A DNA stretch of 64,000 nucleotides, taken from assembly GCF_003054245.1 (NCBI RefSeq), contig NZ_QBKR01000018.1:1-64000 (forward strand), written 5' to 3'. This document shows, piece by piece, positions 9,804 through 34,749 of this stretch (position 1 is the first letter of the stretch; each line of letters starts with the position of its first letter). This DNA is from Melghirimyces profundicolus (GTDB lineage: Bacteria > Bacillota > Bacilli > Thermoactinomycetales > DSM-45169). Position numbers and translations under genes: made by a program. The notes under the pieces were generated by a model. That model had not been told where the DNA came from. It worked only from the letters and a program-made list of their open reading frames with translations, and ran no database searches.

Positions 9804-10904
9804 TTGGGTGACAGGGGAAATCGAAACCGAAAAGGAGTCTGGAGGTGGATCGGCGGACTCGGAGCCTTGATCGCGAGTGGACTGAAGCTGGTTCCTTCCT
9901 TTCTGAAACTGGGGAAATTCGGCGGAACGCTCCTCAGTATGGTGTTATCCGTAGGAGCTTACACCGCGGTGTTGCGATTCCCGTGGTCGTTTTCCATCGG
10001 TCTGGTGATCATGATCTTCATCCACGAAATGGGTCATATTTGGGCGGCGAAGCGGAAGGGACTTCCTGTATCGGCACCGGCTTTCATCCCCTTCGTGGGG
10101 GCACTGATCACGTTGAAGCGTCAACCCCGGGATGCGGTCACCGAAGCGTATGTGGCGTTTGGCGGTCCGATCCTCGGCACACTGGGAGCTTTGGCCGCTT
10201 GGTTGCTCGCCGGATGGACCGGTTACCAGGTGTTGTATCCCATTGCTTATATCGGATTTTTTCTCAATCTCCTCAACCTGCTTCCCATGCATCCGCTGGA
10301 CGGAGGCCGCATCGTGACTGCCATCTCCAGGTGGCTGTGGGTGGTGGGTTTGATCCTGGGGTTGGTTTTGATCCTGGTTCTTTGGAGTCCGCTCCTTCTG
10401 TTGATCTGGCTTCTGTTTGCGTTTCAACTTTGGACAAGCTACCTGTCCCGGCGCCGGAACAATGAACGCCGATTGAAAACGACGGTGGAAGTGGACCCGT
10501 CCAAATTTATCGGCGTCTCCCTCCCGGAGAAAGAAGAACGAAGGGTGCTCCCTTTTGTCCAGTATTGTGACATCAACGACCGGGAGCATCGGTGTGTCGT
10601 TTATTTCCCCCAAGCGGGAGAGATCCACCGTTACGAAGGATTCAGAGGAGGGTTTCGGGAAGTCCGCCTGATTGGGACGGAGGTAAAGATGGCCAAAGGC
10701 GGCCCCCGGATCCGGATGACGCTGGAAGCCGATTACATCCGGGGAGCGGAAGAACGGATGCTCCGTACCGATCGGGAGTATTACGCCGTTTCCCTCTGGA
10801 CACGCCTCGGGTACGGTTTTGTTTATATCGGATTGGCATCCTTTCTGGTTTATATGTTATGGACTGCCGGCAATCTGTCCCTCATGGGCCATTCGGTGAG
10901 CTGA
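9804..10904 (+). CDS. M50-family (site-2 protease-like) membrane metalloprotease
   Basis: 366 residues. The metal-binding motif HEMGH is at 74-78 inside a hydrophobic segment (IFIHEMGHIWAAKRKG). The second ligand motif HPLDGG, equivalent to the family's NPDG, places Asp at 166 in LLPMHPLDGGRIVTA. These define an intramembrane zinc protease of the M50 group, which cuts membrane-embedded substrates. About five hydrophobic segments lie in 45-215, followed by a soluble domain (about 215-335) and a last membrane segment near 340-358. There is no PDZ domain. The TTG at 9804 has AGGAGGAGGG 6 bases upstream. It stands alone between two terminators, so its substrate is not suggested by neighbours. Confidence 0.8.
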   Translation: MGDRGNRNRKGVWRWIGGLGALIASGLKLVPSFLKLGKFGGTLLSMVLSVGAYTAVLRFPWSFSIGLVIMIFIHEMGHIWAAKRKGLPVSAPAFIPFVGALITLKRQPRDAVTEAYVAFGGPILGTLGALAAWLLAGWTGYQVLYPIAYIGFFLNLLNLLPMHPLDGGRIVTAISRWLWVVGLILGLVLILVLWSPLLLLIWLLFAFQLWTSYLSRRRNNERRLKTTVEVDPSKFIGVSLPEKEERRVLPFVQYCDINDREHRCVVYFPQAGEIHRYEGFRGGFREVRLIGTEVKMAKGGPRIRMTLEADYIRGAEERMLRTDREYYAVSLWTRLGYGFVYIGLASFLVYMLWTAGNLSLMGHSVS

Positions 10905-10939
10905 AAAAGCCCGCGGCACCGATTTTACCGCGGGTTTTT
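10904..10939. terminator. Bidirectional terminator
   Basis: AAAAAGCCCGCGG and CCGCGGGTTTTT form a 12-bp stem around an 11-base loop, beginning at the M50 stop codon. Both sides carry A/T runs, so it can also end transcripts of the converging 93-aa gene on the other strand. Confidence 0.85.
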
Positions 10940-11048
10940 CTTCGTCTTATCCGTTGCGTTTCCGTTTTCCCGTGGGCAGGGCATAGGGTGGACTTTCCCG
11001 AACTCCGTTTGTTTCAAGTTGCGTCATGGCTTTCTCTCCTCGCTTTGT

Positions 11049-11330
11049 TTATTTTTTCATGGGAGAGGGCCGACGATGTCGGTGTTTCCGGTGCCCCCGG
11101 TACCCCCGGTACATTTGCAAAAAAACGAGATTGCTCTCCGTGGGGCGATAGGGGACCACTTCCGGGGGCCGACGGAGACCCTTGGTTTTGGAGAGGCGCT
11201 CCTCCAAGAACCACCATCGTATTCGGTGGTAGAGAGAGGGCCTGGCCTTTTTGGGAATGGACCGGTCATCGGTCATCTCCCGGTGAATCCGATGGTGTTC
11301 CAATTGCAACAGATATGGATGAAAATACAT
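11049..11330 (-). CDS. 93-aa basic protein of unknown function
   Basis: The ATG at 11330 on the minus strand is preceded by AAGGAGGG with 7-base spacing, an ideal initiation signal. The 93 residues start MYFHPYLLQLEHHRIHREMT, continue with an aromatic/basic helix (LYHRIRWWFLEERL) and end in a strongly basic tail (RGYRGHRKHRHRRPSP). No signal peptide or membrane segment is seen. The amphipathic helix and basic tail could bind nucleic acid or membrane, but no family is recognised. The frame stays open upstream to 11534, but that extension has no start signal. A terminator-like hairpin lies directly before the ribosome site. Confidence 0.6.
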   Translation of the reverse strand: MYFHPYLLQLEHHRIHREMTDDRSIPKKARPSLYHRIRWWFLEERLSKTKGLRRPPEVVPYRPTESNLVFLQMYRGYRGHRKHRHRRPSPMKK

Positions 11331-11350
11331 GTCTAATCCCTCCTTGAAAG

Positions 11351-11380
11351 AAAAAACGCCACAAACCTGACGTCTGCGGC
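11351..11380 (-). terminator. Terminator-like hairpin in the leader of the 93-aa gene
   Basis: Read on the minus strand, GCCGCAGA pairs with TTTGTGGC (8 bp including two G-U pairs) around CGTCAGG and is followed by GTTTTTTC. It ends just 5 bases before the AAGGAGGG site of the 93-aa gene, the position expected of an attenuator. Confidence 0.5.
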
Positions 11381-11386
11381 AAATCC

Positions 11387-11408
11387 CCTTCTTTCCCGGG
11401 AAAGAAGG
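11387..11408. repeat. 22-bp perfect palindrome
   Basis: CCTTCTTTCCC is followed directly by its own reverse complement. It lies between the two hairpins of the minus-strand leader and could be an operator for a dimeric regulator or another RNA hairpin. Confidence 0.6.
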
Positions 11409-11416
11409 AAGCATCG

Positions 11417-11446
11417 AAAAAGCCGCAGGCCGACACGACCTGCGGC
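11417..11446 (-). terminator. Terminator of the 58-aa gene
   Basis: On the minus strand GCCGCAGG pairs perfectly with CCTGCGGC around a 9-base loop and is followed by TTTTTC. It lies about 28 bases downstream of the stop codon of the 58-aa frame. Confidence 0.75.
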
Positions 11447-11473
11447 GTGGTTTTAAAATGAGTTCAGCCACGA

Positions 11474-11650
11474 TCAGGGGAAGGGTGGCTCCCCGTTCCG
11501 GAGGTCGTCTGGATGTGCATTTTTGGGCACACAAATCCCTGCTTCAGCGGTGCCGAGTGCAAGTGTCCGGCTGAAGGGAGTTTCACCGGAGAACCCCCCG
11601 ATGGGCATACGGGTCCCGTGCATGGTGCATACAGTCCATGATTTCATCAT
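11474..11650 (-). CDS. 58-aa small protein, unknown function
   Basis: The frame opens at 11650 (MMKSWTVCTMHGTRMPIGG) and ends in RNGEPPFP. It has AAAGGAGGT at 11658-11666 with 7-base spacing, a consensus SigA promoter upstream and a terminator downstream, forming a compact minus-strand unit of about 270 bases. The peptide is Gly/Pro/Thr-rich with cysteines at 8 and 40, has no signal peptide or membrane segment and matches no family I know. It could be a genuine small protein, a peptide precursor, or a leader peptide controlling the 93-aa gene below it. The signals are strong; whether the product is stable is unknown. Confidence 0.55.
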   Translation of the reverse strand: MMKSWTVCTMHGTRMPIGGFSGETPFSRTLALGTAEAGICVPKNAHPDDLRNGEPPFP

Positions 11651-11695
11651 GTGGACGACCTCCTTTCACAAAATCGTAACATTTTAAGCAACTTG

Positions 11696-11724
11696 ATTTT
11701 ACCAGCGGTCGAACCGGCTGTCAA
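11696..11724 (-). promoter_or_regulatory. SigA promoter of the 58-aa gene
   Basis: On the minus strand TTGACA (11724-11719) and TAAAAT (11701-11696) are 17 bases apart. The start site would be near 11689, leaving a roughly 40-base leader. The rest of 11725-12048 holds only the repeat piece at 11825 and the start signals of the HAD gene. Confidence 0.75.
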
Positions 11725-34569: not shown

Positions 34570-34749
34570 GACAAATGAATCAAAGTGATACCGCAGACAG
34601 CCGGGGCACCTGTCGGTGCTTAAAGCATCCCAGCCGAGGTATCGGAGATCATCCCCATTTGTTGTTTGGATGGGAGATTGTTCCCGGCCTTCGTCTGTCT
34701 GCGAAGGCTTTTTCATTTGCTCGGATTCCGATCTTAAGGAGGTGTGTCC
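34570..34749 (+). promoter_or_regulatory. L10 leader: autoregulatory rRNA-mimic RNA
   Basis: The rplJ leader contains the conserved purine-rich kink-turn region recognised by the L10-(L12)4 complex (ACAGCCGGGGCACCTGTCGGTG and CATCCCAGCCGAGGT segments at about 34597-34642) followed by an intrinsic terminator. Excess L10 would stabilise the terminator fold. The family is established across Bacillota; the exact pairings here are inferred. Confidence 0.8.
34687..34713 (+). terminator. Attenuator terminator of the L10 leader
   Basis: GCCTTCG pairs with CGAAGGC around an 8-base loop and runs into TTTTT. It ends about 24 bases before the rplJ ribosome site. Confidence 0.82.

Follow-up and report, generated by a model that had tools for sequence, protein, structure and literature searches.

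A probable ribosome-controlled transcription attenuator upstream of a small basic protein gene in Melghirimyces profundicolus and its relatives

RESULTS

Organization of the leader

In a 64,000-nucleotide (nt) stretch of Melghirimyces profundicolus DNA (hereafter, the window), a minus-strand gene for a small basic protein of 93 amino acids (aa) follows a leader that carries an upstream open reading frame (uORF) and, by sequence prediction, two intrinsic terminators (T1 and T2) between that frame and the gene. We conclude that this leader is probably a transcription attenuator under ribosome control, with six strands linked in a chain, in which a ribosome held on the uORF would decide whether RNA polymerase passes T1 and T2. 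The parts of the locus, all on the minus strand, are as follows (SD, Shine-Dalgarno sequence; ASD, the strand that complements it).

11696..11724, minus: promoter TTGACA-17-TAAAAT with TG ahead of the -10 (promoter scan)
11654..11666, minus: SD of the uORF, AAAGGAGGTCGTC, strand 1 (sequence; pairing with the ASD)
11474..11650, minus: uORF, 58 codons including stop (open reading frame listing; a uORF is equally placed in 17 leaders of the order)
11603..11617, minus: repeated nucleotide motif, copy 1, GGGACCCGTATGCCC, resembling an RNA polymerase pause site (putative function)
11520..11539, minus: repeated nucleotide motif, copy 2, GGGATTTGTGTGCCCAAAAA (putative function)
11498..11509, minus: ASD, GACGACCTCCGG, strand 2, complementary to the uORF SD and the T1 left arm (pairing and coevolution)
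11422..11446, minus: terminator T1, strands 3 and 4, U tract to 11417 (terminator scan)
11387..11408, minus: perfect palindrome of 22 bp, CCTTCTTTCCCGGGAAAGAAGG (sequence)
11357..11380, minus: terminator T2, strands 5 and 6, U6 to 11351 (terminator scan)
11338..11345, minus: SD of the 93-aa gene, AAGGAGGG (sequence)
11049..11330, minus: gene for the 93-aa small basic protein with RPSLYHRI motif (sequence; position in relatives)
10947..11027, minus: 26-aa open reading frame (ORF), probable remnant of an ABC operon (permease-like C terminus)
10904..10934, minus: terminator closing the unit (terminator scan)

An initial annotation of this DNA had given the order as 58-aa frame, terminator, palindrome, second hairpin, SD, and 93-aa gene, and this order is exact; likewise, the 22-bp palindrome is perfect (11408-11387), and the U tract of T2 ends at 11351, five bases ahead of the SD that starts at 11345. 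The layout is real, but the span it proposed (11331-11446) is too short, as the promoter at 11724 and everything from there through T2 belong to the unit, and the 58-codon uORF, which it had taken as upstream context only, is instead likely the sensor of the switch. The palindrome was not seen in the relatives that we read by eye, one of which (G008) carries an imperfect hairpin of other sequence between T1 and T2, and it is at most a spacer hairpin that is not conserved. Taken on its own, the terminator scan is weaker evidence (12 sites per 5 kb versus 6.5 expected).

By sequence, the uORF carries its own ribosome site, and AGGTCGT(C) stands both in that SD and in the left arm of T1. Close to the uORF end lies its complement, GACGACCT, in the ASD, which could therefore pair with either copy. 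The T1 right arm, in turn, is able to pair with the T2 left arm. We therefore numbered the strands as the uORF SD (1), the ASD (2), the T1 arms (3 and 4) and the T2 arms (5 and 6). In the OFF state, strands 1:2, 3:4, and 5:6 would be paired, hiding the uORF SD and forming both terminators. In the ON state, a ribosome held at the uORF SD or first codons would occupy strand 1, the freed ASD would capture the T1 left arm as it emerges, and the T1 right arm would then pair with the T2 left arm, leaving strand 6 without a partner so that RNA polymerase may enter the operon. The ribosome would thus be the input of the switch, with inhibitors of early translation as the inducing signal, and the simplest inducers would be drugs that arrest ribosomes on the start codon, because strand 1 is the SD itself.

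Coevolution of the alternative helices

The six strands are conserved and coevolve in relatives. In all 17 leaders from the order (Thermoactinomycetales), the SD pairs with the ASD (-16.7 to -25.1 kcal/mol; 0 to 30 of 500 shuffles as good). We compared duplex energies of matched strands with those of strands permuted among species, in these 17 leaders and excluding those of another family (f12), with the ASD positions of G012, G024, and G027 set by hand for permutation and folding after gapped or longer duplexes. Permuted sets reached the matched energies in 0/10000 cases for SD with ASD, 1/10000 for ASD with T1-left (17/10000 with one of each close pair), and 0/10000 for T1-right with T2-left. 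Eight leaders outside this set gave 0/20000, 85/20000, and 4/20000 (n = 7), respectively. The T1 and T2 limits were picked by eye, as were the elements of these eight leaders, which had been recruited by a covariance model of the ASD and T1; both points favor the claimed pairing, so that species permutation is the fair control for them; four leaders of acetyltransferase type (L080, L082, L083, and L096) were left out because their SD partner, read by eye, lies elsewhere in the uORF.

Alignments gave the same picture for the ASD:T1-left helix (16 rows; G007 omitted, as in the covariance model), in which 91.1% of cells were paired versus 24 to 46% when slid, three pairs had changed on both sides, and 0/500 shuffles matched either the paired fraction or the two-sided changes. 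For SD:ASD (G005 and G018 omitted), 96.0% were paired versus 21 to 64% when slid. Matched changes at all three sites accompany T1 variants AGGTCGAC (G014 and G018), GGTCAT (G034), GGTCGAA (G394), and GGCCGG (G054); in G034, GGTCAT stands at both the SD and T1, and the ASD reads correspondingly GATGACC. Of 22 leaders, all but G008 (5 pairs) have at least 7 contiguous pairs between T1-right and T2-left, and cross-species combinations reach 7 pairs in 63% of cases; because of this, helix length alone is weak evidence, and the energy permutation is the stronger test. In eight leaders (G007, G014, G018, and the five from f12), T1 has no clear U tract, so T1 there would mainly serve as the alternative to the T2 antiterminator. 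A promoter-like site (10 to 11 of 12 positions) lies at most 70 nt upstream of the SD in 16/17 leaders of the order; that of G033 scored 8. The initial annotation had read the leader as an attenuator or riboswitch platform and had proposed a covariation analysis in relatives: the alternative helices do coevolve, which supports the attenuator and points to mutually exclusive antiterminator pairings.

Folding computations and points that weigh against the switch

Predicted folds of the window were stable for positions 11315-11460 (-59.2 kcal/mol, z -5.2) and for the leader through T1 (-108.4 kcal/mol, z -4.3), with 0/200 shuffles as good in either case; the latter fold joins the SD arm GGAGGTCGTC to GACGACCTCC, close to the uORF end. 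When the RNA was cut before the T1 right arm, SD:ASD formed in 15/17 leaders with the SD present, and ASD:T1-left formed in 16/17 upon removal of the first 75 nt.

Several results weigh against the proposed switch. The window leader without T1 folds unremarkably (z -1.9, 7/200), and in two prefixes (G033 and G024) ASD:T1-left forms despite the presence of the SD. At equilibrium with the SD blocked, the ON fold is worse than the OFF fold by 0.2 to 15.6 kcal/mol in 15/17 leaders, being the better one only in G014 and G018; just 5/17 full-length folds contain ASD:T1-left once the first 75 nt are taken away; and with the SD free, T1-right pairs with T2-left in 9/17 full-length folds. Formal shuffles of the SD:ASD alignment were modest (covariation 1/500, two-sided changes 133/500), and only one of the five f12 leaders clearly supports SD:ASD. 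A natural deletion in G016 (L023) has removed the uORF, ASD, and T1, joining the promoter to T2 and the ABC gene, which is possibly a different regulatory state. No resistance gene was recognized by eye in G015 among the downstream ORFs of at least 120 aa. Finally, a ribosome stalled in the middle of the uORF would not itself cover the SD, and such a stall would require a second, queued ribosome.

Since OFF is the more stable state in 15/17 leaders and ASD:T1-left persists in only 5/17 full-length folds, the ON state must be kinetically trapped if the switch operates as proposed. Likewise, the anti-terminator of bmrB is described as energetically less favorable than its terminator (PMC4191407).

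Alternative explanations

The uORF, 25 to 105 codons long across the leaders, might act through its peptide, i.e., a motif G-[ITV]-x-[LMV]-[PS] (such as GTRMP and GIRLS) on which the ribosome would stall, whether or not a drug is present, as happens in erm leaders. We regard this as unlikely. The first copy of the motif starts at codons 11 to 14 in 11/29 leaders by regular expression; IFGH/IFGD-like residues follow it in several leaders, with FFGH in the leader of an ABC-F gene; G011 has three copies by regular expression and a fourth by eye; and in one of three close uORF pairs the nonsynonymous rate is below the synonymous rate (dN 0.048, dS 0.131). However, dN is at or above dS in the other two pairs (0.244/0.197 and 0.109/0.096), which argues against a finely tuned arrest peptide. 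The nucleotide motif GGNNNNNNTNTGYCY has 25 instances in 18/29 uORFs (shuffles: mean 0.34, maximum 3), 4 of which are out of frame (G014, G018, G400, and L080), and in the nine leaders whose first copy has Arg, its codon is always CGT, although CGT makes up 11 to 27% of Arg codons in sampled genes. The regular expression fixes or restricts positions 1, 2, 9, and 11 to 15, where conservation follows from that selection, so that only the remaining positions and the shuffle count are informative. Neither the MRLR arrest motif nor a run of regulatory codons of the trp type is present in the window uORF, and a parallel to a SecM-like GIRAGP sequence was considered and dropped. The nucleotide motif fits the elemental pause signature, which is given as G-10, Y-1, G+1 in PMC12288461 and PMC10268239; copy 1 may halt RNA polymerase at a point that leaves just enough space for a ribosome to initiate. 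In tlrB, pausing is described as buying time for leader translation (PMC6851288). The uORF with the fourfold motif (L028) is 105 codons long and looks as if it had grown by internal duplication.

That the uORF is a separate short transcript, with T1 and T2 merely insulating the 93-aa gene as a constitutive double terminator, is highly improbable. Both hairpins are strong predicted structures with U tracts, termination itself being a prediction, but the same-strand scan found no promoter-like site between T2 and the gene, a separate promoter there being what the initial annotation had named as refuting its reading; moreover, the ASD and T1-left coevolve, and the leader unit recurs upstream of different genes. 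A leader that binds a metabolite, as a riboswitch, or a protein, with the small basic protein regulating its own gene, is likewise highly improbable: the 93-aa protein is indeed basic and the region from SD to ASD folds into several helices, but four leaders that precede an ABC gene (G012, G019, G014, and G018) and two that precede an acetyltransferase gene (L080 and L082) are without the small protein, and the leader matches no Rfam family. Covariance models of known riboswitches and T-boxes gave no match at the leader, and relaxed thresholds yielded four chance-level matches there (E 0.33 or worse). The riboswitch option of the initial annotation thus found no backing, as the only matches at gathering thresholds in the window, tRNA and an L10 leader, lie elsewhere; the ribosomal protein L10 leader (RF00557, 49 bits) is at 34573-34723 on the plus strand. 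A literature search, which left most subscription journals outside its reach, found no description of the element.

Relatives and their downstream genes

In relatives, too, the leader stands ahead of a small gene of this kind. The order is leader, small gene, ABC ATPase both in G008 and in a member of another family, G022. That ATPase occurs in 12/42 genomes of the order by protein search (all E < 1e-121) and not in the genome of the window at E 1e-60; 11 of the 12 have the leader, the remaining one being G016. In the four loci read, the operon consists of the ATPase and an ABC-2 permease, and the best models for the G022 pair are DrrA and DrrB, below curated cut-offs.

The ASD-T1 covariance model listed 22/42 genomes of the order at E ≤ 0.001 (matches in G017 and G030 partial), comprising 17 already known (the 16 that trained the model and G007) and five new ones (G002, G015, G017, G030, and G034). 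G002 has three copies, one before an acetyltransferase gene and two before a small gene; the gene after the small one encodes a MATE exporter (TIGR00797, above cut-off) at one of these two loci and an STM3941-family protein at the second. The leaders of G017 and G030, in which the SD partner is shifted within the uORF (by eye), precede acetyltransferases similar to that of G002, with a RimJ-type best model below cut-off, and outside the order the leader of G102 precedes an MFS-type transporter (named from its sequence alone). Genes of efflux or resistance type (DrrAB-like ABC, MATE, MFS, and RimJ-like) thus lie downstream of the leader in several lineages.

Class-wide, 72/398 genomes, including the 22 from the order, reached E ≤ 0.001 with the model, which is a count of model matches and no measure of prevalence. 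Nine loci outside the order were read by eye: four have the layout (L085, L089, L090, and L091), three look like chance terminators (L087, L092, and L093), and two (L086 in G285 and L094 in G333) have a uORF ahead of an ABC-F-type gene but are laid out differently. The latter two share GGGNGAAGTCTGCCCTTTTTTGG with the leaders described here, and the best model for the L086 fragment is of TlrC/CarA type, below cut-off. At L085, L089, and L090, which come from three other families, only a short ORF of 18 to 20 codons (two ending in ST) comes after the leader, and no resistance gene was recognized in the available flank. DNA BLAST of the leader returned short matches only, in relatives. A pattern scan of contigs returned 10 stretches, 3 of which are real by an identical uORF: Kroppenstedtia guangzhouensis (G004), Lihuaxuella thermophila (G022), and Thermoactinomyces daqus (with the uORF of G033). 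The other 7 have neither T1 nor promoter by regular expression, which the T. daqus locus fails as well.

The 93-aa gene and an exporter remnant

Besides the 4/60 other genomes in which it was found by sequence, the 93-aa gene was located in further ones by position. Over the first 38 codons, its G009 and G004 homologues are clearly constrained (dN 0.10, dS 0.51). Pfam and NCBIfam gave no match for the 93-, 58-, and 26-aa products. The 26-aa ORF ends in YALPTGKRKRNG, 9/12 residues of which are identical to the end of the G022 permease, YAMRTGKLKRNG (alignment score 47 versus a maximum of 38 in 1000 shuffles); its start, MTQ, fits the ATPase start of some relatives, in a stretch too short for a test. 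Resistance-type genes are found downstream in relatives, and only the 93-aa gene and this remnant in the window. The exporter has probably been deleted in this genome, leaving the leader, small gene, and scar, and the 93-aa gene probably stays under leader control. An apparent second leader of acetyltransferase type (L096; G000:C41, ~11001-11131, minus strand) is present by eye in the same genome, and the acetyltransferase gene downstream of it looks broken by an internal deletion.

DISCUSSION

The leader has counterparts among known attenuators. Like erm(K) and mef(E)/mel, it combines a leader ORF, alternative inverted repeats, predicted intrinsic termination, and, in relatives, a resistance-type gene downstream, and erm(K) is said to have two adjacent terminators (PMC4335068). 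In those systems, however, the peptides are short and MRLR-like (MTASMRLR and MTHAMRLR), in contrast to uORFs of 25 to 105 codons here, with no MRLR in that of the window, and the SD of the uORF itself is strand 1 of the present switch. The bmrBCD operon of Bacillus subtilis shares ribosome-mediated attenuation through a small leader ORF and an ABC drug exporter (PMC4191407), whereas here T1 and T2 both follow the uORF and the exporter is DrrAB/ABC-2-like. In vmlR, cplR, and tlrB, antibiotic-held ribosomes on the uORF prevent repression (PMC9226507, PMC10201436, PMC6851288). According to the same sources, the stem that carries the uORF in vmlR acts as an anti-antiterminator, while the vmlR antiterminator has the added effect of relieving a hairpin that sequesters an SD downstream. 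Pausing of RNA polymerase plays a part in both vmlR and tlrB. The uORFs of vmlR and cplR comprise three codons and their target is an ABC-F gene, that of tlrB being a methyltransferase gene; one terminator each is described, versus the two linked ones here. Attenuators of the trp type, summarized in PMC4191407, follow the same logic of 1:2 and 3:4 versus 2:3, whereas the present leader has no run of a single amino acid, a six-strand chain, and two terminators.

Beyond the window, we tentatively propose, as a possibility short of a firm conclusion, that these leaders form a family outside Rfam: a portable attenuator, found in several families of the class and put to use before ABC-2, MATE, and MFS exporters and RimJ-like acetyltransferases, that would sense whether a ribosome occupies its own SD and not a specific arrest peptide, by way of a five-helix chain with conserved pause-like sites (G-11 G-10 ... 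T-1 G+1) timing ribosome loading. If this is true, these operons should be induced by inhibitors that trap ribosomes on start codons, in a largely peptide-independent manner, and a single recognizable RNA signature could be used to find inducible resistance-type operons in a little-studied order. The RPSLYHRI-type protein, kept where the exporter has been lost, would then be a candidate for a part in the same response.
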